From Paenibacillus sp. CC-CFT747 (GTDB lineage: Bacteria; Bacillota; Bacilli; Paenibacillales; NBRC-103111): DNA of 64,000 bases. A program made the position numbers and the translations under genes. The stretch covers positions 3,967,501 to 4,031,500 of the forward strand of contig CP106741.1 of assembly GCA_030323305.1 (NCBI GenBank), written 5' to 3'. The notes under the pieces are model-generated. The model saw only the letters and a program-made list of their open reading frames with translations, ran no database searches and was not told the origin of the DNA. Shown here piece after piece: positions 16,759-32,540 of this stretch (within the stretch, counting starts at the first letter, position 1; every line of letters begins with the position of its first letter).

Positions 16759-16931
16759 GGTTTTGCGCCAAAAAGGCCCATCTACCTTTTTCATTCGTAT
16801 ACCTTTTCGGTTTTCCGGAGTTTTGCTTATGGAAAGATTATTGTCTATGGATACGCGTTGCCGTTTGGCTTTTACTTAAGAAGGCAATAAGACGGAACTT
16901 ATTATAAAGATGAGCGAGGAGGAAAGGAAGC

Positions 16932-19900
16932 ATGAAAGGATTACGAAACCGGCATGCATGGACCTTCCGGAGGGGATGGCGGCACTGCTGACCGCGCTGC
17001 TTCTGTGGACAGCAGGGCTTTACGAGGCTTCGGCGGTATGGGCGGCGGAAGCGCCCTTGACCCCGACGGATGACACGTATGCCAATGCGGGAACCAAGTC
17101 GGAGCAATCGTTCGGAAGTTCTCCCGATCTGTTGGTTAAATATCAAGCCGCGGATCCGAATGTGACCCGGCAGGCTTACCTTCGCTTTGATGCGAAGAAC
17201 TACCGTCCGGAAGCCGTAGGCTCTGCCAAACTTAGGATATACGGAAGCGTGACGGAACCGGGGGTGTCCAGCGTGCGGATCTCCGTTTACGGCGGAGGGC
17301 AGGACGGCTGGGCGGAATCCACCTTGAACTGGGGAAGCAAGCCGGAGCCGGAATTCTATCTGGGCCGGTTCGACGTCACTCCTACGGCGGGATGGTACGA
17401 GGTGGACGTGACTTCGTATATCCGCAAGCAAGCCGGGGAGGACGGAACCGCCACACTGATTCTGACCCAGGAGACCTCTCCCGGCTATGTGGTCACGTTC
17501 AAAAGCAAGGAAGATTCCTTACATAAGCCTCAATTGCTTATTTCTGATACCGCGGTTCAGCCGGACGCCCCATCCTGGCCGGCCGGCAGCGCCTTGCTTG
17601 GAAAGGGAGCTTCGGGATCCGCTCTATCCTTAAGCTGGACTCCTGCCTCTTCGGGCAGCGGGGAGATAACGGGTTACCGCGTTTACCGGAACGGGGAGCT
17701 CCTTCAAACCTTGCCGGGCACCACGCAAGAGTATACGGTAACCGGCTTGCCGGACGGGAAGAGATACACGTTCCAGGTACAGGCGGGGGATTCGGCCGGC
17801 CGCTGGAGCACCGACGGGCCCATCTACAGCACCATCCAGACGAGGATCCCCACGGATGACGCTTATGTAAACGCGGGGGCATCGGCAGACAAAAATTTCG
17901 GACAATCGGCGGATCTGCTGGTGAAGAACAATGTCGCCGATCTGACCCGGCGTTCCTACCTGCGGTTTGATCTGAACGGGATGAAGCCCGAAGAGATCGG
18001 ATCCGCCAAGCTAATGATCTACGGGGCGATTACCGAAGCGGGTCCGACCTCTTTACCTACCTCGATAGCCGGGGGTGAAGTTCAGGATTGGAGCGAGCAG
18101 TCCATCACGTGGACCAACAAGCCGGACACCGAACACTATCTCGGCAAGTTTACGATTAACCGGACGATGAAGTGGAACGAGGTGGACGTCACCTCCTACC
18201 TTCGCAAGCAGGCACCAGGGGCGGCCTCGCGACCTTCTCGCTGTTCCAGGAGATTTCTCCGGGCTACGCTACTGTATTCAAAAGCAAAGAGGACATCCAT
18301 AAGCCATATTTGCTTATTTCCGCTTTGCCTGCGGATGGGAACGCCCCGTCTTGGCCGGCAGGAAGTGAGCTCGCGGCGACCGATGTGCAGGAATCGTCCT
18401 TAAAGCTTAGCTGGACGAAGCCAACGTCTTACGGCGGGGCCGAGCTTACGGGCTACCGCCTCTACAAGGACGGCGCTCTCCTTCAGGAGATTCCGGCAAC
18501 AGCCAGCACGCTTGCCTTGAACGGGCTCCAAAGCGACAGCCGGTACACCTTTCAAGTGCAGGCGGGAGACAGTGCGGGGCGCTGGAGCACGGACGGCCCG
18601 CTGGTGACCGTGCGCATGCCGGGCAACGAAATCGTGCAGGTCAAGCAAGGCCATGTATTCGTGCAGCCGGAATCGGCTCAGTTTAAGGTTCGGACCGGAA
18701 GAAGCAGCGCTCAATGGATCGTGGAGGATGCTTGGGGACGGGAAGTGAAACGAGGCTCTTCGCCTGTAGCTGGAGGGGAACTTCTGCTTTCCGTACCGGT
18801 AGAGCAGAGGGGGTATTTTACCATCCGGTTCAGCCTGGAAGCCCCCGGCCTGGAGCCGGTCGTGTTGAGCACGCCGTTTGCCGTGCTGTCTCCTTTCGAT
18901 GTGAAGGCGGTACCGGAATCCCCGTTCGGGTTTGCTACCCATCTGCATCGGACCGGGACGGGTTGGGGCCCGGATTTGATTGATCTTATCCAGGCTTCCG
19001 GAGCCAAGAACGTAAGGGATGGAATCGAATGGAACGGAATCGAGAAGCAGAAAGGCCAGTACACCTTCGCCCCGGTGCCGGACAATTATATGGCGAAGCT
19101 GAAAGAGCGGCAGGAGGACATGCTGTTCGTGGCCGGCTACAACAACCCGCTCTATGACAATAACAGCACGCCTTATACGGACGAAGGGCGCCAAGGGTTC
19201 GCCGACTATGCTAAATCGTATTTCGATCATTACGGAACCCAGCTGAAGTGGCTTGAGGTGTACAACGAATTTAACATCGCCTTCGGCGACCGGGGGAACG
19301 GTCCCGCGGATTCGAGGCCGGATTATTACTACCCCTTCTGAAGAGAACGTTTGAGACGGTAAAAGCCGAAAGGCCGGACGTTACGGTAGTAGGCATGGCG
19401 ACAGCCGGCGTGCCGCTGAGTTGGATGGAAGAGGTGTTCAAGCTTGGCGGACTACAATATATGGATGCGGTTTCGATTCATCCTTATCAATATCCGGCGG
19501 CACCGGAAGGCTTGATCGGCCAGCTGGCCGCAGTCCAGAACCTGATCCGCCAATACAACAACGGGCAATCCAAGCCGTTATGGATCAGCGAGTTCGGCTG
19601 GCCGACGCAGGAAGACAGCAGAGGCATCGATGAGAAGACGCAGGCGGATTATCTGGTGCGCGGCCACGTGCTGGCACTGGCGGGCGGCGTTGAGAAAATC
19701 TTCTGGTACGATTTCATGAATGACGGAACGAAGGCGGATTACAACGAGGACAACTTCGGGATTATCCGCAATGCCGCCGACCCCCAAGGAAAGCATACCC
19801 CGAAGCCGGCCTATGCGGCCTACGCCGCCATGACCCGGGAGCTGACCGGAGCGGATTACGTCCAGAAAGAATCGACACCGGACGGCATTTACAGCTATGC

Positions 19901-22328
19901 GTTCCGCAAGGAGGGGACGGACCTTCACGTCGCCTGGTCGCTGAGCTCCCAATCCATGGCGATTAAGACCTCGGGGCCGGTGGACATCACGGACCTGATG
20001 GGCAATACCCAAACCTACACCCCGCTCGATGGAAAGGTTTATATCACCTTGAGCGGAGAGCCGGTTTACATCAAAGGAACGATCGAAGGGTTGGTCCAGG
20101 ATTCCACCTTTACGGTGACCTCGGGAGATAAGGCGGTTGCCACGGAGAAGGTGCAGCTCGATGTGAGAATGGTCAACCCGCTCGCTGAGCCGCTGTCGGT
20201 TTCGCTGGCTTCCGAGAACCAGACGGTAGAGCTGGCGGCTGACGCTCATGGTACGGTTAGCGGCACCTTAAAGCTCGGATCCGTTGATCACACCGGTATC
20301 AAGCATGTCCGGGGAGACCTTCTCTCCGGAGGGAAACGAATCGGTTACTTGACCCATCAGGTTCGGATAGGCGAGCCTTACGAGATTCGGGTGCGTCCCG
20401 TAGTGGCCGATGAAACGGCCCGTCTTGGGAAGATGAACGTGACCGTAACGAACCGCTTTAGCGGCCAATCGCTCCGTGTTCTTAAGGTGGATTGGGCCAT
20501 GAATGCTCAGACCGGTTCCATGGATTCCGGAAGGGAGGTGGCTCCGCTCGCCGAAGAGACCTTCTCGTGGGATGTGGGTCCTGTGGATTATGACAAGAGT
20601 TACTCCTATCAAGTGACCGTTGATCTGGAGGGCTTCGGACCGATTACCCTCTCGGGCAAAGTGGAATATAACCCCATTGCCTACAAAACCGTTCAGGTGG
20701 ACGGCGTTCTGGACGATCCGGCCGCCGCTCCCTTAATCGATCTATCGAAGGCAAACAATAAAATTTCCGGCTATGGCGGTACGGACGATGCCAGCGGGCT
20801 GGTCTGGCTGAATGCCGACCGGGATAACCTCTATATAAGCGCGAAGGTCACCGACAATGTGTGGGCTTATCCCGCCGGAGGAGGCGATCAGTGGCAGAAC
20901 GACGGCTTTCAGTTCGCCCTGGCCGCCGGAGTACCGGGAGAGAGCAAGGCTTGGTACGAATTCGGGATGGCGGAAACGCCGGCCGGCCCGCAAATCTACC
21001 GGTTCCTCTCGCCGGCCGGGCTTCCGACGGGCCGCCTTGACAATGGGAAGCTTGTCATCGTCCGGGATGAGGCCCAGCATACGACCACCTATGAGATGGC
21101 TCTTCCGTGGTCCGAAATAAAGCCGATCCGGCCGGAAACGGACGAGGTCGTCAGTTTCTCGCTTCTCTTAAACGATAACGACGGCGTACAGCGCCGCGGT
21201 TATATCGAATGGGGCTCGGGTATCGGAGGAGCCAAGGATCCTAAGCTGTTCCGGACGATCGAATGGATGAAGCCCGGCTCCCAGCTGAAGCTGGAGCCGG
21301 CCGAAGGAACGTACAGCGATTCCATCGAGCTTAGGGCCACCTTAACCGATCCGGCCGGCCGGCCAATCGCCGGCGAATCCGTAGATTTTGAAGTGGAGGA
21401 GGGCTTGGTCGGCTCTGCCGTTACGAACCAAGAGGGAACGGCGTCGATCCGCTATACGATCAAGCAGGGAGCCGGTTCCTCGGCGGAAACCGTCGGGTAC
21501 CCGACGCGCGCCCTATACAAGCCCAAGGCCGGCTCGGCCTACAAAGAAAGCACAGGGGAATCCAAGCTGACGGTCGGCAAGGAGCAAGCCTCCTTGACGG
21601 CGGCAAGTCCGTCCCTGATAACCGTCGGAAGCGGGCAGACGCTTGACGTTGCTTTGGTCCAGAACGATGCGGAGCCTGGCCGGATGGAAGGCATCCCCGT
21701 GGGGGCCGTCATTACCCGGCTGCTTCCGAATGGCACCCGCGGCGACACGGCGGTAACCGAGGCCGTTTATTCGACGGATGCTTCCGGAACGGCTCATCTA
21801 CCGGTTCAGCTGGCAGCCGGATTATATGAGATCCGCTATGAGATTCAGCCGAATCCTTACTATCAGACGGCATCCACCATCGCAACTGTACTTGTTGCGG
21901 ACCGCCTGCCGGACACGGCCAGCCTGAACGGATTTCTTCCGCTCCCCGGGGGCGGAGGTCCTCTCGGCCAGAAGGCGGGCAAGCTTCACTTTACTCTGCA
22001 GGGCGAGCGAACGCCGGGAGGGGAACTATCGGGCCAGCTGCGTTTCCATGCCGAACCTCAGGGGCTGGACTTGACTAGCCGCTCCTTGCGGTGGCTGGCG
22101 GCAGCGGGCTCCGAAACCTATATCCAGGCAGAGGCGGAGGACCAGCAGGCGAACCTTTACCTGGTGCGTATCATCGCCGCTGGCGGAGAAGACAGCGGAA
22201 GCCCCTCTCCCCGGATCAGTGTGCAGATGTGGAAACAAGAGGGCGATAAGGAAGAGCCGTTCTATGCGGCGTTCCTGCAGCCTTTGCGAGGAAACTTTAC
22301 CTTATCATCAGGAGGTCAAACCGCATGA
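16932..22328 (+). CDS. Giant secreted clan GH-A glycoside hydrolase with duplicated binding/FN3 modules (three frame breaks)
   Basis: The reconstructed protein has about 1799 residues. Order: signal peptide to about residue 41 (ending AVWAAEA); CBM96/DNRLRE-like module 43-201; FN3 208-300; a second such pair 304-563; Ig-like segment to about 653; clan GH-A TIM barrel 656-973; CBM9/DOMON-like module 1253-1446 (starting VQVDGVLDDPAAAPLI); Big_1-like domain 1453-1543. Probable catalytic residues are the acid/base Glu in EVYNEFN and the nucleophile Glu in WISEFGWPT. The frame breaks after the G4 runs at 16972 and 18218 and the C4 run at 19332; one base each restores continuity. The ATG at 16932 has GAGGAGGAAAGGAAG upstream and, with the first correction, yields a textbook signal peptide. 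ATGA overlap couples it to the GH105 gene, which suggests an acidic, pectin-like polysaccharide substrate. Confidence 0.82.
17060..18620 (+). repeat. Intragenic tandem duplication of the binding-module + FN3 unit
   Basis: Two units of about 785 bp, starting near 17060 and 17845, encode the same module pair. Both start with TDD-Y-NAG and end with the same FN3 phrase (FQVQAGDSAGRWSTDGP). The proteins are highly similar while the DNA has diverged, which points to an old duplication kept by selection. Confidence 0.85.
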
Positions 22329-23376
22329 TTCCCATAGCGGAAACAGCAGCACGCGTCTACGGTTACATGATTCATGATCACTCCAGGCAATGGGGGATGG
22401 ACAGGGAGGCCTGGGACTGGGTCCCGGGCGTCGGAGTGATCGCTATGTTGGAGTACGGGGAAACCTTCAAACGCCGCGAGGTCCTGGACGATCTTCATGA
22501 ATGGGAGCAGCGCAACCGGGTGAAGTCGGCGGAGCTGAAAGTCATCAACTCGATTGCGCCGTTCGCGATTTACGCTCCTCTATTTCGGCACACGGGTGAT
22601 TCCTATTATTATGAAGCATCCGTCCGGGTTGCCAACTGGCTGCTTCGGGAAGCCCCCGCACAAGGGAAGGGGCCTTTGAGCATACCGTAACGGAGGCGGC
22701 TCAATTCCCCGAGCAGGTGTGGGCCGATACGGTCTTTATGGCGGTGCTGTTCCTGGCAAGAACGGCCAGGCTGACCGGCCATGCCGAATATGCCAAGGAA
22801 GCAGTGGAGCAATCCTTGATTCATATGCGGCTGCTGCAGGACAAGGAGACGGACGTTCTGTTTCACGGCTGGAACTGCATCACGTCCGATCATATGTCCG
22901 CCGCCCGCTGGACCCGGGCCAACGCTTGGGTGGCGGCCGGCATACCGAAGATTGTTTCGGAGGTCGGAGGGCTTGCCCCAATTCCCGATGAACTGCGGAT
23001 AAGGTATGAGCGTCTGATGAAGGGCCTCATCCGGTATCAACAGGACGACGGGCTGTGGAGCACGGTCATGGACCATCCCGATTATTACCGCGAGGCGTCC
23101 GGCAGTGCCGGCATCGCATGCGGAATTCTGCGCGGCATCCGCAGCGGCTGGCTCTCTCCGGAGCTCGCGGAAGCAGCCGATCGGGCCCTTCCCGCCTTGG
23201 CGGAAAGGATCGAAGCTGATGGATGTGTGAGCGGGGTATCCGGCGGAACCCCGGTCATGGAAACAGTCGAAGCCTATAACCGCATCGCCTGTTACCCGAC
23301 CCTGTATGGGCAAGGGCTGATGCTGATGCTGTTGAACGCCTTCGAAGCGGCTAAGGCAGGGGAGGAAGGACGATGA
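22325..23376 (+). CDS. GH105 unsaturated uronyl hydrolase (YteR/YesR-like; one frame break)
   Basis: About 350 residues, (alpha/alpha)6 barrel, cytosolic (no signal peptide). GH105 enzymes hydrolyse the unsaturated galacturonyl or glucuronyl residue left at the non-reducing end by polysaccharide lyases, as YteR and YesR do on rhamnogalacturonan fragments. Supporting motifs are EQVWADTVFMAVLFLART with the catalytic Asp, RWTRANAW, and YREASGSAGIACGILRGIR. The ATG overlaps the stop of the upstream glycosidase (ATGA) and its own stop overlaps the next ATG, so translation is coupled across three genes. The frame breaks in the C5 run at 22653-22657; one C restores APRTREGAFEHTV. Confidence 0.87.
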
Positions 23377-25070
23377 GCACGGACATAGGGAGGGCCGCTT
23401 TGCTTAAGGCGCTGGAAGAGAGGGAGCCTGATTACAACGCGTCGATACGCATGCTGCGAAGGCCCTTTAGCAGCCCCGGGTACCATACGACAATCAAGCA
23501 GGCGGACTACGTTCACCCGACGCGGGAAACCGTTCAGTACGCGGTGGCCCTTCTTGACAGCGGCCAGGACACCTGGCGGGAAAGAGCCTTCTCCATCCTG
23601 GAGCAAATCGTGTCTCTGCAGGACGACGACCCGGCATCCCCTACATACGGAATCTGGTCCTGGTTCTACGAGGAGCCGCTTTCCCAAATGGCCCCGCCTG
23701 ATTGGAATTGGGCGGACTTCTGCGGAAAACAGCTGGTGCTGGCGGACGTCCGGCACGGGGCTTCCTTTCCGCCTGCCCTAAGGGCGGCGGTGAAGAAAGC
23801 CATCTACAACAGCTGTGAGGCGATCATCAAGCGGAATGTCGGACCGGAATATACGAACATCGCCATCATGGGGGCCTTCGTCACCTTGATCGCGGGGGAG
23901 CACTTCAGAGAAGAGAAGTTTCGCCTCTACGGCTTTGACCGGCTGGAGCGCTTCTACCGGCATACGAAGGAGCAGGGCACCTTCCAGGAATACAACAGCC
24001 CCACGTACACCATTGTTGCCATTGAAGAGCTTTCGAGCATTGCGACGGAAACGGAGAGCCCGGAAGCCCGTGCCATGATCGAAGAGCTTCTGGACGGGGC
24101 CTGGGAGATGGCTGCTTATCATTTTCATCCTGCGGTGAAGCAGTGGGCCGGGCCGCACAGCCGGTCTTACGACAAGCTGCTTCCGCCGGAGAAGCTCTCT
24201 TTATCCAGATGGCGTGTGAGGGTCACCTTCACTTGCTCCCGGAGAGCGAGTTGATCTATAACCTGACCTGGTATGGCAACCGGATCTCCTGTCCGGCCAA
24301 GTACCACCCGCTTTACCGGGAGGTGCAGGAAAGGCATGGAAAACAAGCGGTCGCCAAAAGAGCGGACGGCTCAAGCTCGAGAGAAGCTTATCTCTATATG
24401 AACCCGCGGGTTTCCGTCGGCAGCTTCAGCTCCAATATCATGTGGAACCAGTGCCGCAATCTTCTGGCTTATCTCTCGAACGGGCCGGCCTGCACGTATA
24501 TCCACTTCCGTGTTCTCCACGACGGCTACGACTACTGCTCGGCGGTCTATAACGGGATTCAAGAACAAGGCAGCGTTCTGCTCGGCGTGACCTTCGCAAC
24601 GAACGGCGGCGGCACGCACCCTAACCTGAACCCCGTGCATGGACGCATCACCGCTTCGGATCTAAGGCTGCGCTTCGAAATCGGCGGCTCCTGGATCAGG
24701 TAGCCGTTGACGGGCAGGGCGATCTTGTGAATGTCCGGGTGGACGGCCATCATGTTAAGCTGGGCAAGCTTTATGGAGCCTTTGGCGGGAAAACAGACTT
24801 CTTCTGGGAGATTCATAAAGAAGAGGCGCAGGTAAGCGTCGATCTGGTGATCCATTCGGGGAAGCCCGGACGTTGGATTTCCATTCCCTCTCGAAGGCCT
24901 GCTTCCTTCTGGCTTTCGATGTGGGGGAGGCGGACCGCGTCCTCCAGGCGGAAACGAAGGAGGCGGGCAGCAGCGTAGAAACCGAGGTGCGTTTTGGTGA
25001 AAACACTGTTCTGAGCCTGCAGCTTCCTACCGCGCCGGATGAGCTCCTTAAGCTTCTGCATCGATCGTAA
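23373..25070 (+). CDS. Uncharacterised protein, probable (alpha/alpha)6 barrel with C-terminal beta domain (three frame breaks)
   Basis: I do not recognise the family with confidence. After correction at the T3 run at 24200, the G2 near 24685 and the C3 run at 24865, it is about 566 residues. The first 280 are helical with conserved-looking aromatic/polar motifs (WSWFYEEP, NWADFCGKQL, EYTNIAIMGAF, EYNSPTYT, GPHSRSYDKLL), reminiscent of the toroid domain of heparinase II/III-like polysaccharide lyases. The second half is beta-rich (YLYMNPRVSVGSFSS, HDGYDYCS), like their sheet domain. There is no signal peptide. It is the third gene of the GH-A/GH105 operon, joined by an ATGA overlap and followed by a terminator, so it probably acts in the cytosol on the same oligosaccharide. 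Lyase or hydrolase activity is inference. Confidence 0.6.
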
Positions 25071-25222: not shown

Positions 25223-25316
25223 GTATAGATAGTAATAGGGAATAGCTTTCCGGTCTCTCCGCTGCGAATAATAGGGACGAGTCAGCCGGCGGCTGTTGAA
25301 GGAGGAGGCGAAACGG

Positions 25317-27329
25317 ATGACGTCACAAGATAAGTATACTTTCCTTGTAAAAGCGTTGCTGGTTATGGTGATGGTCTCCAGTCTGCCGCTGCTGCTGTTT
25401 AGTTCGTACAACATCAACCTGGTCATTACGAAAGCGATGGAGATGGTTAATTCCAAAAATCAAAACGAGCTTACCCGTACCGGAGTGCTGATGAATAACA
25501 GTCTCCGCCAGGTAAGGGAGCTGGCCAATTCGATCATGACGGAGAAAGCCTTTGCCAGCACTCAAACCGAGAGCGGCAAATGGAAAGCGCTTCAGCTGCT
25601 GACGGAAAAGCAGTTTGCTAACCCTTACATCAAAGAAGTGACCCTATACAACGAAAATCAGAAGTACATGCTCATTCCCAGTTACGGCATTGACCGGAAC
25701 ATGAGGTATCGTCCTGATCCGGAAATGGAAGCGGCGGTCTCCCGCATGTCCTTTTATGAAGTAAAGACGACGGATACCAAGACAGATGACGGGCACTATA
25801 CCGTGGATCTAATCGGCAAGCTCCCGGTCGTGACAGAGGATCGAAACAGCCTGATCATTCACCTCGACATCGAGAAAATCTACTATGACTTTCTGAAACA
25901 GCTGAACGTGGACCCGGAGCTTTACGATTATTATTTGACGAATGCGGAAGGGACCGTTCTTTATCATCCCAATCTGGCACTCGTCGGCCAAACCTTCTCA
26001 GGGCTTGAAGCAAGCAAGCCCGACCGAAAGATCAACACTTACCAGCTGGACTCCATGAACTGGAAGCTTGTGAGTGAAGTGAACAGCCGTCTTCTCTACC
26101 GCGATGTCACCGTTCTCCGCGGAAGAATGGTGACAATCGCTATTGCCGCCTCGGTGTTACTCCTCCTTCTTGTTGTAATGGGCCTTAGGTATCTGTATAA
26201 ACCGTTTCGCCATATCGCCCAGCGTGCCGAGGAGAACGAGGTGAAATGGAGGAAAACCATGCTGTACCGGTTAATCAAAGACCCGCAGCCCCGGGGTGCC
26301 GATCTTGAACGATTTCTTCCGGCTTATTCCTCTTATTTACTTGTAGTGGTGTTCATGATTAAGCACGGGGAGGAGGCCGTCCCGGACCCTTCCTCCATCT
26401 TGGGGATGGTGGAGGATCGCCTGGCCAAAATGTTCCGCGCAGACTTCTTCCGGGAGGAGCGGGAAATGATCTCGCTTGTTCAGCTTTCCGATCCGGATAT
26501 TAACCGGTTTCTGACGGAGCTGATGCTTGAACTGGACGGGGACTTGCTAGAGCAGCTGATGATCTGCGTAGGAGGCGTTCATTCCTTGCCCGATATTCAT
26601 AATTCGTACACGGAAGCGATGTATGCCTGTAACATCGGACGGATCTATTCGAATACGGATGTCTACTGCTTCAGCAAGCTGCCCATGGACTATGAAACCC
26701 GGAATCTGGCCATTCCCGCTGTAGAAGAGATGGAGCTGGCGATCCGGCAGCATAACGAGAAAGCTTATTCCGAAGCGTTGGATGTACTGTTCTCGGATAA
26801 GCTTACGGTGGTGGACTACAATTATAATTTTTATTTGACCGTTTCCCTGCTCCTTCGCCTGTACGGACAAGAAAGCTTATCCTTCCTTCAGGAGCTGAAC
26901 CGGCTGATCACGGAGCGGGGGATCATGAACATCACGGGAGTGAAGCAATTTTTCCTCTCCAAATTTCAAACCTTTCAGAAGGAATACGACGGGGATACCA
27001 AAAACTATTTTCACAAAATTGAAGCCTTCATTGCTTCTAAGTATCGGGTTAACTTTTCCTTGGACGAATTGGCGGAAGCAGCCGGCGTAACCAAGCAGCA
27101 CCTCATTGCCCTGTTCAAGCAGTTTTACAATCGGACGCCCGTCGAATATATAAACGAATACCGGATCGAGAAAGCCAAGCAGCATCTGGCCGATTCGGCC
27201 GCTAGAATATCCGACGTCGGTATCCTGGCCGGTTTCAACAGCAACAGTTATTTTGCGAAGGTGTTCAAGCAATACACCGGCATTACCCCATCGGAGTACC
27301 GCCAGCTCATCCACAACCGGCAGCCGTAA
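25317..27329 (+). CDS. Membrane-anchored AraC family regulator with Cache sensor
   Basis: 670 residues. The first membrane helix is in LLVMVMVSSLPLLLFSS, followed by an extracellular dCache-like sensor (residues about 40-260) and a second helix (TIAIAASVLLLLLVVMGL). The last 100 residues form an AraC double helix-turn-helix (FSLDELAEAAGVTKQHLIALF ... FAKVFKQYTGITPSEYRQL). The ATG at 25317 is 8 bases after AAGGAGGAGG and is preferred over the in-frame TTG at 25296, which overlaps that site. It directly precedes importer 2, its probable target. The palindrome at 25208-25222 suggests it is in turn repressed by a GntR-type protein. Confidence 0.9.
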   Translation: MTSQDKYTFLVKALLVMVMVSSLPLLLFSSYNINLVITKAMEMVNSKNQNELTRTGVLMNNSLRQVRELANSIMTEKAFASTQTESGKWKALQLLTEKQFANPYIKEVTLYNENQKYMLIPSYGIDRNMRYRPDPEMEAAVSRMSFYEVKTTDTKTDDGHYTVDLIGKLPVVTEDRNSLIIHLDIEKIYYDFLKQLNVDPELYDYYLTNAEGTVLYHPNLALVGQTFSGLEASKPDRKINTYQLDSMNWKLVSEVNSRLLYRDVTVLRGRMVTIAIAASVLLLLLVVMGLRYLYKPFRHIAQRAEENEVKWRKTMLYRLIKDPQPRGADLERFLPAYSSYLLVVVFMIKHGEEAVPDPSSILGMVEDRLAKMFRADFFREEREMISLVQLSDPDINRFLTELMLELDGDLLEQLMICVGGVHSLPDIHNSYTEAMYACNIGRIYSNTDVYCFSKLPMDYETRNLAIPAVEEMELAIRQHNEKAYSEALDVLFSDKLTVVDYNYNFYLTVSLLLRLYGQESLSFLQELNRLITERGIMNITGVKQFFLSKFQTFQKEYDGDTKNYFHKIEAFIASKYRVNFSLDELAEAAGVTKQHLIALFKQFYNRTPVEYINEYRIEKAKQHLADSAARISDVGILAGFNSNSYFAKVFKQYTGITPSEYRQLIHNRQP

Positions 27330-27403: not shown

Positions 27404-27548
27404 CATAGGCCTCTCCCTAGGAATTTCAAGCCATCTGAATATTTTGGGATTGAAACCGGCCGGTTGATCGACCATGATGACCGTATCACCAAGCTAAAGC
27501 CGAGCGAGTCCAGGAAACCAAAGAAAACCCAAAGGAGGAATGGGAAGG

Positions 27549-29063
27549 ATGGGACGAAGCAGCGGAAAGGGGAGGTCGAAGGCGTGGTTTCTTTCAGCCG
27601 TGTCACTTGCTGTCATGCTCTCAGCATGCAGCTCCGGAACACCCAAGGACAAGGAGGTGGCGGTGGCCGACACAGCCGCTCCGAAGAAGGCGGCCAAAAT
27701 TGTAGCGTTGTCCTACAATCCATCGTATGACCGCAAAGGATCACCCGAGGAGAAGCATGTGCATGATCTCATCCAAGAAAAAACGGGAGCGGACGTGGAG
27801 GTTATCTTTACCCCGAGCGATCAGTTTGCGAGCAAACGGAACCTGATGCTTTCGTCTGACGAGCAGCTGGATTTTGCCGAAGTTTCCGTTAGCGATGCCA
27901 TCGACTTGTATAAGAACAATGCCATCATCGCCGTAGACGACCTGCTGAATACCTACGGGCCGAACCTCAAGAAGAATGTGAAGCCGCAAGCCTTCAAGCA
28001 GGTTACCTTCCAAGGCAAAATTCTCGGGATTCCCCGGGAAGCTCCCGTCATTACGCCGGACGCGCTGCAAATCCGCAAGGACTGGCTGAAGAACCTCGGG
28101 CTTTCCGTTCCCAAAAGCATAGAAGACTTCGAGAAGGTCATGGACGCCTTCAAGAATGGGGACCCCGACCGTAACGGCAAGAACGATACCTATCCGCTCA
28201 CGACCGGATGGGGCAACTTCGGCAAGCTGGAGACAATATTCAGCCCGAATTTCTTGCCTCAAGCTATGGCCTGGTGGAAGGACAGCGACGGCAAGCTTAA
28301 GCCGGCCGAGCTCCATCCCGGTTATTCGGCGATGATGGCCAAATTCGTGGAATGGAACAAGAAGGGGTACATTTGGCCCGACATGCTGCTCTCCAACATG
28401 GCCAAGCAGCAGGAGGTCATCGCCCAGAACAAAGCAGGGACCGTTGCCGGCTGGTTCTCCTCCACCATTGTGAATGCTCATGACGTCCTGCGCAAGACGG
28501 TTCCCGACGCGGAATACCAGCCGATCATGCTGGAGGGCAAGGGAATCAACAAGCTGGAGACAACCTCTTATGCCGGAACCGTTATGGTGATTTTCAAGAA
28601 GAGCAAGCATCCGGAAGAAGCGATGAAGCTGTTCAATTTCGAAGGAACCTATGACGGATGGCTGCTGGGCACTTACGGGGTGGCCGGGGAGAACTACAAT
28701 ATGCTTCCCGACGGCATGATCGAATTCATTTCCGACGACAAAACGGATATTAACAAAGCCAAGTATTATGCGAAATATTCGTGGGTCGGCATTGTATGGG
28801 ACGGCAAGCCGGCTTGGCCGATCAAAACCTGGGTTGGCGAGCAGTACAACCTGAAGAAGCAGCAGGTCGAAAGCCTTCCGCGGTTTGACTCCATCGACAA
28901 GACCGTGTTCTACGATCAAACGAAATGGAAGTCTTCTTCCCGGCTGAACGATATGAAGACCTATTTGGATGAACAAAAAGTAAAGGTCTTTACAGGGGAA
29001 GTTCCCGTCAGCGACTGGGAGAAAATCATGAAGAAATGGCTGGAAATGGGGGCCAGCAAATGA
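27549..29063 (+). CDS. Extracellular sugar-binding lipoprotein, LplA type (importer 2)
   Basis: 504 residues, intact. A lipoprotein signal ends in LSACSSG, with the anchoring Cys near residue 25. The body has the LplA-family layout: SYNPSYDRKGSPEEK, SDQFASKRNLMLSS, and the calcium-site-like NGDPDRNGKNDTYPLTTGWG. AAGGAGG ends 10 bases before the ATG at 27549; the ATG at 27540 is too close to it. It delivers an oligosaccharide to the permeases at 29170 and 30153. Confidence 0.93.
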   Translation: MGRSSGKGRSKAWFLSAVSLAVMLSACSSGTPKDKEVAVADTAAPKKAAKIVALSYNPSYDRKGSPEEKHVHDLIQEKTGADVEVIFTPSDQFASKRNLMLSSDEQLDFAEVSVSDAIDLYKNNAIIAVDDLLNTYGPNLKKNVKPQAFKQVTFQGKILGIPREAPVITPDALQIRKDWLKNLGLSVPKSIEDFEKVMDAFKNGDPDRNGKNDTYPLTTGWGNFGKLETIFSPNFLPQAMAWWKDSDGKLKPAELHPGYSAMMAKFVEWNKKGYIWPDMLLSNMAKQQEVIAQNKAGTVAGWFSSTIVNAHDVLRKTVPDAEYQPIMLEGKGINKLETTSYAGTVMVIFKKSKHPEEAMKLFNFEGTYDGWLLGTYGVAGENYNMLPDGMIEFISDDKTDINKAKYYAKYSWVGIVWDGKPAWPIKTWVGEQYNLKKQQVESLPRFDSIDKTVFYDQTKWKSSSRLNDMKTYLDEQKVKVFTGEVPVSDWEKIMKKWLEMGASK

Positions 29064-29169: not shown

Positions 29170-30159
29170 TTGAAGGGGTCTCCAGCCGCGCCTGCCGATA
29201 AGAGCGTTCTCCATTCGGCTCCTCACGGGGCGGCCGTCAAACGAAAAGGGCGGATGTTCCCTCTCTGGAGGTATAAATTCCTTTACCTCCTGCTGCTGCC
29301 AGGGCTGCTGCATGTCGTGATCTTTCACTATGTTCCGATGTATGGGATCGTCATCGCCTTTCAGAACTTCAGCCCTTACGCCGGGGTGAGCTCCATTTTC
29401 CAAGACCCCCAATGGGTGGGTCTGGACCATTTCCGCGCCTTCTTTCAGTCGTATTATTTCGGAAGAATTATCGGCAATACGCTCCTGATAAGCAGCTACA
29501 AAATTCTGTTCGGGTTTCCCGCCCCCGTTATCCTGGCTCTGCTCCTGAATGAAATCCGGCATGCCCGCTTCAAAAAAGTGGTTCAGACCATTACTTATTT
29601 GCCGCATTTCCTGTCATGGGTTATCCTTTCCGGCTTGATCCTGACCCTGCTGTCCCCGACAACCGGGATGGTCAGCAAAATCATCATGAACCTGGGCGGT
29701 CCGCAAACCAACCTGCTCGCGAGTCCGGATTTTTTCCGTCCCCTCCTGGTTGGAAGCGAAGTATGGGCCGGAGTCGGCTGGGGGAGCATCATCTATTTGG
29801 CCGCTCTGGCGGGAATCGATCCGGCCCAATACGAAAGCGCTAAGATGGACGGGGCCGGCCGGTTTCAGCAAATGCTTTATATCAGCCTTCCGGGGATGGC
29901 CAACATCCTATCCATTATCTTTATCTTTGCGGTCGCCGGCATTCTGAATGCGGGCTTCGAGCAGGTGCTGCTGCTTTATTCTCCGAACGTATACAGCGTC
30001 GGCGATATTATCGATACGTATGTTTACCGGGAAGGCCTGATTAACAACAAGTATTCGTACGCACAGGCCGTCGGATTGTTTAAGAACGTCGTCGGTCTGG
30101 TGTTCCTGCTTGTCACCAACTACATCGTGAAGAGGTTGGGGAAGGAGGGCATATGGTAA
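29170..30159 (+). CDS. ABC sugar importer permease, LplB type (importer 2)
   Basis: 329 residues, intact, with six predicted membrane helices. HYVPMYGIVIAFQNFSPY near the start and YESAKMDGAGRFQQMLYISLPGM (the cytoplasmic EAA loop, quoted in part) mark an LplB-type permease. The start is probably TTG at 29170, which has AAGAAAGGAGG upstream; no better ATG lies nearby. The last codons overlap the ATG of the second permease. Its partner is the binding protein 107 bases upstream. Confidence 0.92.
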   Translation: MKGSPAAPADKSVLHSAPHGAAVKRKGRMFPLWRYKFLYLLLLPGLLHVVIFHYVPMYGIVIAFQNFSPYAGVSSIFQDPQWVGLDHFRAFFQSYYFGRIIGNTLLISSYKILFGFPAPVILALLLNEIRHARFKKVVQTITYLPHFLSWVILSGLILTLLSPTTGMVSKIIMNLGGPQTNLLASPDFFRPLLVGSEVWAGVGWGSIIYLAALAGIDPAQYESAKMDGAGRFQQMLYISLPGMANILSIIFIFAVAGILNAGFEQVLLLYSPNVYSVGDIIDTYVYREGLINNKYSYAQAVGLFKNVVGLVFLLVTNYIVKRLGKEGIW

Positions 30160-31015
30160 GGAAGACGGCATTTGATTACGCCAATAGCGCATTTATGCTT
30201 CTGTTCTGCTGCAGCATCATCCTGCCTTTCCTGTTCGTCATCAGCCAATCGCTCATGTCCAATGAGGATGTGCTGAAATACGGGGTTACCCTGATCCCCA
30301 AGCACGTGACCTTCTATGCCTATAAATACTTGCTGGTGGACAATACCTTTCTTTATCGGGCCTTTGCCAACTCGGTGTTCGTCACCACAGTGGGGACGGG
30401 GCTTTGTCTGCTGGTAACCGGAGGCATGGCATACGCCTTATCCAAAAAATACTTGCCGTACCGCCATGCCATCACCCTGTTCGTCATGGCCACCATGTTT
30501 TTCAGCGGCGGTCTTATTCCGTCCTACCTTCTCGTGGTAGGGCTGGGGCTGAAAAACTCCTTGTGGGCTTTAATGGTGCCTTCCTTTCTGAGCGTATGGA
30601 ACATGTTCTTGCTTCGAAATTTTTTTATGGAGCTCCCCGCGAAGTGGAGGAATCCGCTTATCTGGATGGGGCGAACGATGTGACGATTCTCGGAAGGATC
30701 GCGATTCCGATGTCGCTTCCCGCCCTCGCTACGATCGGATTGTTTTATGCGGTTGGCTTCTGGAACAGCTGGGTGCCGGCATCCATTTATTTGAATGACC
30801 CGGACAAATGGCCTTTGCAAATGCTGGTGAAGACACTGCTGACCTCCTTCGATCCAAGCCAAGGAGGCGGCTCCCAGGATCTGCTGATGGTCCTCTCGAA
30901 GGACAGCGTCCGCTCGGCCGCCGTCATCCTGACCACACTGCCCATTATGCTGGTGTATCCCTTCCTGCAAAAGTATTTTGTCAAAGGCATTACCGTCGGT
31001 TCGATCAAAGGGTAG
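30153..31015 (+). CDS. ABC sugar importer permease, YtcP type (importer 2; one frame break)
   Basis: Starts inside the end of the LplB gene (ATGGTAA overlap) and ends in QKYFVKGITVGSIKG, the hallmark of YtcP/LplC permeases. The frame breaks in the C4 run at 30634-30637; one extra C restores NFFMELPREVEESAYLDGAND, the start of the EAA loop, and gives 287 residues. It completes importer 2, which has no local ATPase. Confidence 0.87.
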
Positions 31016-31041
31016 CATTTAATAAAGGAGAGGGAGCTTGC

Positions 31042-32540
31042 ATGGGAAAGCTGCTTTTTTGGGACGACACTTCTATCGAGCACCGGTCGGAGGTGAGGTT
31101 CGTCCCCCACCGTCCGGAGAAATGCCGGGCCAATCCGCTGATGGCCGGAAACGCCTTCCATGGAGGGCCCCAGACGGTCATGTACACCGCTCAGAACCGG
31201 CTGTTTCAGATGTGGTATGCCAGCACGAACGCTGCCAAGGAACCGGTTCTGCTCTGTTACAACTCACGGGACGGAATAACGTGGGAAGCGCCGGATTGGG
31301 GAGTTTATGACGATCCGACTTTTCCCAATGTCGTCATGAAATCGGGCTGCCCCGGGGTTCCGCATGTGAATTTCAACATCCAGCGGATCGTACGGGACGA
31401 ACAGGAGCCCGATCCGGACAAGCGATACCAAATGCTCTACTTTGACCGGTCGCCGGAAACCGGCCTCCATGGTGTGGGGGCGGCGGCTTCTCCGGACGGA
31501 ATCCATTGGACGCGGATGAATGGAGGAGATTTCGTTTTCCGCGGCCACGACGCCTTTAATGTGATGGTGGATAAGAAGAACGGACGGTACAACGGCTATC
31601 ACATTCAGCTACTGACGAAGGGAGCTTCCCCGTATACGGCCCATGACAACGCTCCCGCCATCCGGAGAGTAGTGGGGCTTCGAACAAGCGGGAATTTCCG
31701 GGACTGGACGGAGCACGGACAAATTATTACGGTGGACGGGGCCGACCCGGTCGATTTGCAGCATTATTTTTTTCGGTAAGCGCCTATGAAGATTACTATG
31801 TGGGGCTGCTCAATGCGTATTATACCGAGTCCCAGGTGGGGGATACGGTCTTTCTGTTCAGTAAGGACGGCATCCATTGGGATAAGCGCTACGCCGGCTA
31901 TAAGCCGGACAGCTTTCTCCCTTTGGGGGAGGAGGATGAATGGGACAGCGGCTTCCTGTTTTCCGTGCAAGAGCCCGTTCCGGTAGGCGACCGGATCTAT
32001 TTCTACTACCAGGCGATGAACCGTCCGCATAACTGGATCGCCTGGTTCGAGAACGAAAGGGACTTCCTTGGGCGGTTATCCGCCCAGCGGCAGTGGGAGG
32101 CCAAGCTCGGCCAACGGAAGGTGTACGAGAAGGAGGTGATTAAAGCCTTATACGAGGAGCTGGCGGCCAGGGTGGAGAAACGCCAGCAATCGGAGCAGGC
32201 ACAGTTTATCCGGGGAATGGGTCTGGCCACTCTGCGGGAGGACGGGTTCGTCTCCTTAACCGGCCGGAAGGAGAAACCCGGCTTGGTGATCACCAAGCCG
32301 TTTCCTCTAGGGGAGAAGCTTTTCGTTAACGCAGACTGCCGGGCGGGAACGCTGACGGCCTCGTTGACCGACGAAGCGGGCAATCCGTTAGAAGGAGGGG
32401 AAGCGTGCCACCTTTCCGGCCAAGACGGAACCCGATTGGAGCTTCCTTGGAGCTCCCTGCGGGGGGCGGAGCGGGCTGGACGTAACGTCAAGCTCCATCT
32501 GACCCTGCAGGATTGTCATTTGTACTCCGTTGTTTTTTAA
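31042..32540 (+). CDS. Cytosolic five-bladed beta-propeller glycosidase-like protein (GH32/43/68 superfamily; one frame break)
   Basis: About 499 residues without signal peptide. The repeated blade pattern S-x-DGIxW (NSRDGITWEAP, ASPDGIHWTRM, FSKDGIHWDKR) and segments such as FQMWYAST and IYFYYQAMN are typical of five-bladed propellers related to GH32/GH43. A C-terminal beta-sandwich-like region (LTASLTDEAGNPLEGGEA) also fits that superfamily. I could not assign the three catalytic acidic residues safely. The frame breaks in the T7 run at 31767-31773; one T restores QHYFFSVSAYEDYYVG. It lies 26 bases after importer 2 and probably acts on the imported oligosaccharide. Confidence 0.72.

Follow-up and report, generated by a model that had tools for sequence, protein, structure and literature searches.

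We analysed a 64,000-nucleotide stretch of the genome of Paenibacillus sp. CC-CFT747 (hereafter the window; GenBank assembly GCA_030323305.1, contig CP106741.1, positions 3,967,501 to 4,031,500 of the forward strand), in which a gene of unnamed family directly follows a gene encoding a glycoside hydrolase family 105 (GH105) unsaturated uronyl hydrolase. The start codon of this gene, here called the lyase-fold gene after the predicted fold of its product, lies at 23373 and overlaps the GH105 stop codon as ATGA, and its own stop codon ends at 25070. An earlier note on this DNA, made from the sequence alone, had proposed this translational coupling, a GH105 enzyme as the partner and a repaired product of about 566 residues. 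All three hold: the solved structures closest to the window GH105 include GH105 proteins, and in another genome of the same species (G001) the lyase-fold gene is intact, with 566 codons in a single frame.

In the window assembly, the lyase-fold gene gives three profile matches in differing frames (at about 23391–24203, 24194–24694 and 24691–24924, converted from genome coordinates), and its final open stretch runs to 25067. The G001 copy is 97% identical to the window gene over query residues 1–277. Over 36 kb, G001 and the window assembly are 96.0% identical, and 46 of the 55 gaps between them are single-base. Of the 19 genes compared (window 10199–46166), 13 require more than one frame in the window assembly. 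The frame breaks are a property of this assembly and not peculiar to the lyase-fold gene. Because they affect so many genes and most gaps are single-base, sequencing or assembly error is a likelier source of the breaks in the lyase-fold gene than true decay, and the 'broken' genes of the window should therefore not be read as pseudogenes.

The lyase-fold gene belongs to an unnamed family

Scanning one genome per species with a pattern gave 179 candidate relatives, of which 171 were confirmed, and the best 80 of these 171 were kept. They come mostly from Paenibacillus and Cohnella, with some from Planctomycetota, Armatimonadota and unplaced metagenome-assembled genomes (MAGs). The gene is a single open frame in all 80; 79 are full-length (551 to 699 codons, with starts chosen by us), and one relative, L087, is incomplete where the gene runs off a contig end. 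By a crude test, a strongly hydrophobic N-terminal start is present in 4 of 81 members (the 80 relatives plus the G001 copy), all of them MAG proteins, and the intact G001 copy has none. A profile of 50 family members (alignment A1) had a match at E ≤ 0.001 in 80 of 104 genomes of the window's bacterial family, distant relatives counted, and in 5 of 299 genomes of an even phylum sample, the window's own genome being among the five.

None of the searches placed the family, as the earlier note had anticipated. The 50 members of A1 matched no Pfam or NCBIfam family above its curated cut-off (scattered matches, best E 0.007), and the window gene pieces and the intact G001 copy were likewise without a match in these databases. 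Neither PF07940 (heparinase II/III) nor PF10022 (GH154/DUF2264) was among the 13 families matched by any of the 50 members at E ≤ 1. The A1 profile found nothing among the Protein Data Bank (PDB) sequences at E ≤ 10: 9O4U, 9NWF and 8OI4, all in the set searched, went unmatched, as did polysaccharide lyase (PL) families PL33, PL35 and PL40, a PL40 chain having been verified in that set. In titles and abstract openings, with partial coverage and no family name to search for, we found no description of the family or its reaction.

Further distantly related groups occur in the same bacterial family (A5, A6 and A7, comprising L124–L143, and also L011 and L013), with proteins of about 550–690 residues. 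L011 and L013 were scanned and had no Pfam match. Profile searches of the PDB with A5 and A7 returned nothing, and A6 returned one repeat-protein match and two borderline ones.

Both domains are predicted to have a polysaccharide-lyase fold

The closest named relative, L014 from Paenibacillus sedimenti, is 72% identical to the window gene over the matched N-terminal part, and its best AlphaFold model had a predicted local distance difference test (pLDDT) score of 95.3 and a predicted template modelling (pTM) score of 0.93. Helices extend from residue 2 to about residue 315 and form a toroid, with β-strands afterwards, bearing out the earlier note's helical N-terminal and β-rich C-terminal halves; the toroid plus antiparallel β-sheet fold looked for in members of PL12 (heparinase II/III) is thus present in the predicted model. 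Of 36 Foldseek matches to PDB structures at E ≤ 0.001, 34 were polysaccharide lyases; the other two were a dermatan sulfate epimerase and a phage tail protein. The 34 lyases span PL8, PL12, PL15, PL17, PL21, PL35, PL39 and PL40. Template modelling scores were modest, at 0.29 to 0.48 by query length; 4fnv (heparinase III) ranked first, and the nearest two-domain folds were heparinase III, PL15 and PL35.

With VIA, the best rows for the whole model were mostly toroid-only matches to epimerases and hydrolases, with Z up to 16.8, and the toroid alone therefore does not indicate a lyase. A PL17 lyase appeared at Z 14.5 over 451 residues (root-mean-square deviation 6.9). No GH154 chains were among the best 50 rows, a result that is not informative on the relation to GH154; PL33 and PL35 chains were present in the fold library searched.

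The β domain was also predicted in isolation (pLDDT 95.0). Foldseek gave no match at E ≤ 0.001 for this domain; the first six rows were lyases (E 0.0012 to 0.009), with other proteins mixed in from rank 7. In VIA, the best 50 rows were all lyases or dermatan sulfate epimerase (Z 12.3 to 8.1), led by the PL15 lyase Atu3025 (Z 12.3 over 201 residues). A polysaccharide-lyase fold is thus well supported for both domains of the predicted models, with weaker support from Foldseek for the β domain alone, in line with the earlier note's comparison with toroid-fold lyases, and no strong match to a non-enzymatic family emerged from Pfam, NCBIfam or Foldseek.

Invariant residues outline a candidate active site

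Conservation was counted over the 81 members, with residues numbered as in L014. N162, Y212, H262, R264 and Y266 are present in all 81, and W358-N359-Q360 and H416 in 80, with one gap in what is probably a truncated copy. N162 and Y212 align with the catalytic Asn and Tyr of heparinase III and GH154, and R264 with the catalytic Arg of GH154 (Table 1). At a loose alignment setting, H262 coincides with the FGD-motif Asp of heparinase-type proteins.

Several lyase families have a common Asn/Tyr/His set, reported as N238/Y291/H444 in PL33 with relatives in PL12, PL15, PL17, PL21 and PL39 (PMC11848413), as N192/Y246/H401 in PL35, with a table of other families (PMC12088678), and as N245/Y305/H485 plus Asp358 in PL40 (PMC12915356). 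In the lyase-fold family, the M-W-N-Q loop of L014 follows the third β-domain strand, and its equivalence to the His loop of the lyases is read from strand order, not from superposition. W-N-Q is invariant in all 80 members that cover this loop, and an equivalent of heparinase III H424 was not found there. The family thus appears to combine a dehydratase-type Asn-Tyr-Arg set with a retained lyase-type β domain, the lyase-type His being lost, judging by strand order. Elsewhere in the β domain, conserved His and Asp residues are candidates for a metal site comparable to the Mn or Zn sites in PL35 and PL33.

Among the distant relatives, group A6 stands apart: His-His-Glu occupies its Asn position and the Tyr position lacks Tyr, so A6 proteins may use a different mechanism.

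Table 1 Features of the lyase-fold gene and its neighbours, in window positions (residue numbers of L014)
Feature	Position	Strand	Remarks
Two-domain toroid + β-sheet protein gene, unnamed family	23373..25070	+	several frames in window assembly
YTNIAIMG motif with invariant N162	23850..23873	+	aligned with heparinase III N240, GH154 N177
EYNSPTY motif ending in invariant Y212	23988..24008	+	aligned with heparinase III Y294, GH154 Y229
WAGPHSRSY motif with invariant H262, R264, Y266	24144..24170	+	R264 aligned with GH154 R285
MWNQCRN β-domain loop, no His	24440..24460	+	at site of lyase catalytic His, by manual reading of strand order
LHDGYDY to GGGTHPNL, conserved His/Asp of β domain	24515..24628	+	conservation; candidate metal site
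GH105 unsaturated uronyl hydrolase, split in assembly	22325..23376	+	ATGA-coupled to lyase-fold gene
Secreted protein, two CBM96 modules and PslG-like glycosidase barrel, split; 1799 codons intact	16910..22328	+	
AraC-type regulator, weak Cache-domain match below Pfam cut-off	25296..27329	+	
Lipoprotein, putative ATP-binding cassette (ABC) transporter solute-binding	27540..29063	+	position, signal sequence; no Pfam match at E 0.01
Two ABC-transporter permeases, second split	29170..31015	+	assigned by eye from translation

Profile comparisons suggest links of the family to heparinase-type lyases and to GH154

Profiles were aligned to one another with hhalign, with the reversed profile and shuffles as controls. 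A1 matched the distant group A5 at E 1.5e-29. A superfamily profile of 64 rows was made from A1 and two related groups, A6 being excluded before the shuffle counts. Against 15 to 28 heparinase II/III type proteins, A1 reached E 0.015 to 0.065 and paired N162 and Y212 with Asn240 and Tyr294 of heparinase III. At the best of these (28 proteins, E 0.015), the score of 29.65 was nearly equalled by the reversed control (27.8), so the match of A1 alone was dropped as support for heparinase-type homology and counts only together with the wider profile. The superfamily profile scored 51.5 against the heparinase-type set (E 2.7e-5; reversed 32.9; 0 of 30 shuffles as high), and N162 and Y212 again paired with the catalytic Asn and Tyr. 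At the position of R264, the first heparinase-type sequence has Ala, and other sequences have Asp, Ala or Gly instead of a conserved Arg. In a low-confidence alignment, the β-domain part misplaced known loops and was left unused.

Against 29 GH154 sequences, one of them matching the dehydratase 9O4U at 7.4e-105, the superfamily profile scored 29.4 (E 0.0094; reversed 13.7; 0 of 30 shuffles as high). At default settings, hhalign paired N162, Y212 and R264 with GH154 N177, Y229 and R285, each invariant in all 29 sequences. GH154 and the heparinase set aligned in the same register (E 0.0043), with the GH154 Arg on the column of the FGD Asp.

A PL8-type active site was set aside. A1 reached E 0.67 against 20 PL8 (Lyase_8_N) proteins, with 46 of 60 and 20 of 30 shuffles scoring as high; a distant PL8 link is still allowed by the superfamily profile, which gave E 0.14 over 26 columns, a score reached by 0 of 30 shuffles, but by default leaves the catalytic residues unpaired. 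Against 11 verified GH88/105 toroids there was no clear signal from A1 (E 0.13; 3 of 30 shuffles as high), the superfamily profile (E 0.11; 2 of 30) or GH154 (E 0.29; 7 of 30), and a GH88/GH105-type toroid hydrolase was likewise set aside.

Genes for unsaturated-uronate processing lie near many members of the family

In G001 the intact cluster runs from an ABC permease, a binding protein and an AraC regulator through the 1799-codon secreted protein, GH105 and the lyase-fold gene to another AraC regulator and another binding protein, this one accompanied by permeases; the transporter genes were identified by eye. The barrel of the secreted protein resembles PslG and 5jvk (Glyco_hydro_cc). The window GH105 also matches NCBIfam NF051900 (β-galactosidase BglB), its intact copy scoring 260.9 bits against a cut-off of 420, and the BglB name may therefore mislead annotators of this gene. 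Gfo/Idh dehydrogenase genes lie downstream in the cluster.

Two further genes lie beyond these. Beside the transporter, at about 31039–32540, is a gene whose intact copy encodes 498 residues; the protein looks by eye like a β-propeller hydrolase and matched neither Pfam nor NCBIfam at E 0.01. About 11 kb beyond the window end and about 50 kb downstream of the lyase-fold gene, a GH154/DUF2264 dehydratase gene occurs in two frames (G000:C1:4042907-4043967).

Across the 80 relatives' loci, a GH88/105 gene is the immediate same-strand neighbour in 26, and a PL22 gene, found within 5 kb in 19, is the immediate same-strand neighbour in 13. One or the other occurs within 5 kb in 47 of the 80, and both in 6. 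GH88/105 genes numbered 39 within 5 kb and 3 at 5–10 kb, some flanks being shorter. The GH88 and PL22 neighbour profiles drew on 7 and 3 proteins, respectively, of the same loci that were later counted. The loci are related, so they do not represent independent events. An earlier neighbour scan covered 50 loci, of which two were lost at the gene caller; 43 of 48 had an upstream neighbour on the same strand, and 13 of these 43 were GH88/105. Among the other 113 neighbours, 43 were hand-picked, and PL22 accounted for 10 of the 43. The figures of these scans derive from the 25 of 33 (upstream) and 25 of 73 (other) families listed.

In the sub-group L020–L057, PL22 oligogalacturonate lyase replaces or accompanies GH105 beside the lyase-fold gene, hinting at a galacturonate-containing substrate there.

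A proposed uronate β-eliminase that supplies GH105

We propose that the lyase-fold protein is a cytosolic, cofactor-independent β-eliminase. Its target would be the uronic acid at the non-reducing end of an oligosaccharide brought into the cell, and its product the 4,5-unsaturated end required by GH105. That it is a uronate β-eliminase of some kind, dehydratase or exo-lyase, with a substrate that would contain a uronic acid, we consider likely. As to the reaction, our leading but tentative reading is uronate dehydration as in the GH154 enzyme BcGDH, which we judge only slightly more likely than exo-lyase cleavage. N162 would stabilize the carboxylate/enolate, Y212 would abstract the C5 proton aided by R264, and a second residue, perhaps Y266, would protonate the leaving C4 hydroxyl, with the β domain shaping the pocket. 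In the pathway we envisage, the secreted hydrolase would cut an acidic polysaccharide, the ABC transporter would import the fragments, the eliminase would make the unsaturated end and GH105 would remove it. The secreted hydrolase would leave saturated ends, and a cytosolic eliminase would therefore be useful. Our reading is favoured by the predicted fold, the residues invariant in all 81 members and their pairing with GH154, and by the setting of the gene: the ATGA overlap with GH105, the concentration of GH88/105 genes within 5 kb, the glycosidase-like secreted protein upstream, and the near-absence of the three eliminase groups checked beside it, of which GH154 and PL8 each occurred in 0 of 80 loci and the heparinase type in 1, with other lyase families uncounted.

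GH154 proteins were proposed in 2025 to be uronate dehydratases acting on saturated terminal glucuronate and thereby priming it for GH88; in BcGDH, ten alanine variants, including those of N177, Y229 and R285, are reported as inactive, with Tyr229 and Tyr289 as the proposed base and acid (PMC12269599). Dehydration competes with cleavage as the reaction of the lyase-fold protein because the β-domain His appears to be absent and Asn-Tyr-Arg is common to the family and GH154. A cytosolic exo-lyase is nonetheless a serious alternative: it would catalyse the same β-elimination with the rest of the chain as the leaving group, as in the exotype PL15 lyase Atu3025, and GH105 or PL22 would take its products. 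The two-domain fold, the PL15-like β domain, the superfamily profile's best score, with N162 and Y212 on the heparinase-type catalytic pair, and the nearby PL22 genes all fit such an enzyme, whereas the invariant W-N-Q, standing by strand order where PL12, PL33, PL35 and PL40 carry a catalytic or activating His, and R264, which has no conserved counterpart in heparinase-type sequences, argue against it.

Several observations weigh against dehydration. With the superfamily profile, heparinase-type proteins reach a higher score than GH154, and A1 alone matches GH154 more weakly still (E 0.018 to 0.039). GH154 also scores against PL8 (E 0.0043), in another register and with Asn and Tyr unpaired, so toroid profiles can score one another without a common active site. 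The proposed catalytic acid of GH154, Y289, four residues after the Arg, aligns with Thr268 of L014, whose invariant Y266 is at Arg+2 and may stand in for it, and GH154 W178 aligns with Ile163. GH88/105 genes lie within 5 kb in just 34 of the 80 loci, and in 33 neither GH88/105 nor PL22 does. BcGDH is described without a second domain, and its authors call the test substrate poor, such that small defects could resemble a loss of activity (PMC12269599).

Readings outside β-elimination are far less probable. A uronyl C5-epimerase comparable to dermatan sulfate epimerase 1, an enzyme with the fold and the Tyr in common with these lyases, would account for Foldseek rank 2 (E 2.2e-8) and for Z 9.9 with the β domain, but it would not yield an unsaturated end for the coupled GH105, and we regard it as improbable. 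We place a glycoside hydrolase with an α/α toroid equally low: VIA scores cellobiose 2-epimerase (Z 16.8) and a GH8 xylanase (Z 15.4) above any lyase, but these matches are confined to residues 1 to about 317, the longer and the β-domain matches are lyases, and the profile comparison with GH88/105 is without clear signal. Least probable is an enzyme of a 3-keto-glycoside pathway, suggested by the downstream Gfo/Idh genes and by the sub-threshold BglB match of the GH105 partner, BglB being a name that we take to be linked to this pathway; a similar Gfo/Idh gene lies within 5 kb in only 1 of the 80 relatives' loci, and solved GH105 proteins match the partner well. The earlier note had allowed a cytosolic lyase or a hydrolase; the lyase-like enzyme stands, a hydrolase is unlikely, and a dehydratase with GH154-like Asn-Tyr-Arg has been added.

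Within a known clan, the lyase-fold proteins form a new family distinguished by its unusual combination of residues. They may be the first recognized members of a new uronate dehydratase family in which a lyase two-domain body carries a GH154-like Asn-Tyr-Arg site, a possibility that we hold more loosely than dehydration itself. GH88 and GH105 need an unsaturated substrate, and the family would fill a gap in clusters without a recognized lyase across a large group of soil-dwelling bacteria; if its sister groups dehydrate too, dehydration would be a routine alternative to β-glucuronidases in the window's bacterial family. The family would connect polysaccharide lyases with the newly described uronate dehydratases in a way that can be tested, its residue pattern bears on what separates chain cutting from water removal within one fold, and annotators could name a gene missed by Pfam and NCBIfam models.

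Comparison with known systems

PL33 and PL35 resemble the lyase-fold family in fold and in the Asn and Tyr of the triad; they differ in their catalytic His, absent here, and have no PDB sequence match to the family. The PL15 lyase Atu3025, whose exo action is given in its PDB title, has the nearest β domain, but shows no sequence relation in the PDB sequence search, and its His311/Arg314/His531 set was not recognized in the family. PL12 heparinase III (PF07940) shares the two-domain fold and the aligned catalytic Asn240 and Tyr294, with the differences that PF07940 is unmatched, His424 is replaced by the W-N-Q loop and the FGD Asp position is taken by H262.

The catalytic domain of BcGDH (9O4U) is presumably a toroid, like that of the lyase-fold protein, and its catalytic Asn, Tyr and Arg align in register with those of the family, whereas Y289 and W178 are not kept and PF10022 is unmatched. 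Partnership with GH88/GH105 is a further likeness between GH154 and the lyase-fold family (PMC12269599). P29_PDnc (PL37) is set apart by its description, in which the proposed catalytic residues are Asp, Arg and Lys, with Tyr306 dispensable (PMC8511951). What is apparently the same protein, by our inference, has been modelled as a toroid plus a β domain (PMC6168547), and P29_PDnc, reported to have no sequence relation to GH154, supplies GH105 in ulvan breakdown by dehydrating a terminal uronic acid (PMC8511951), the reaction that we propose for the lyase-fold protein.

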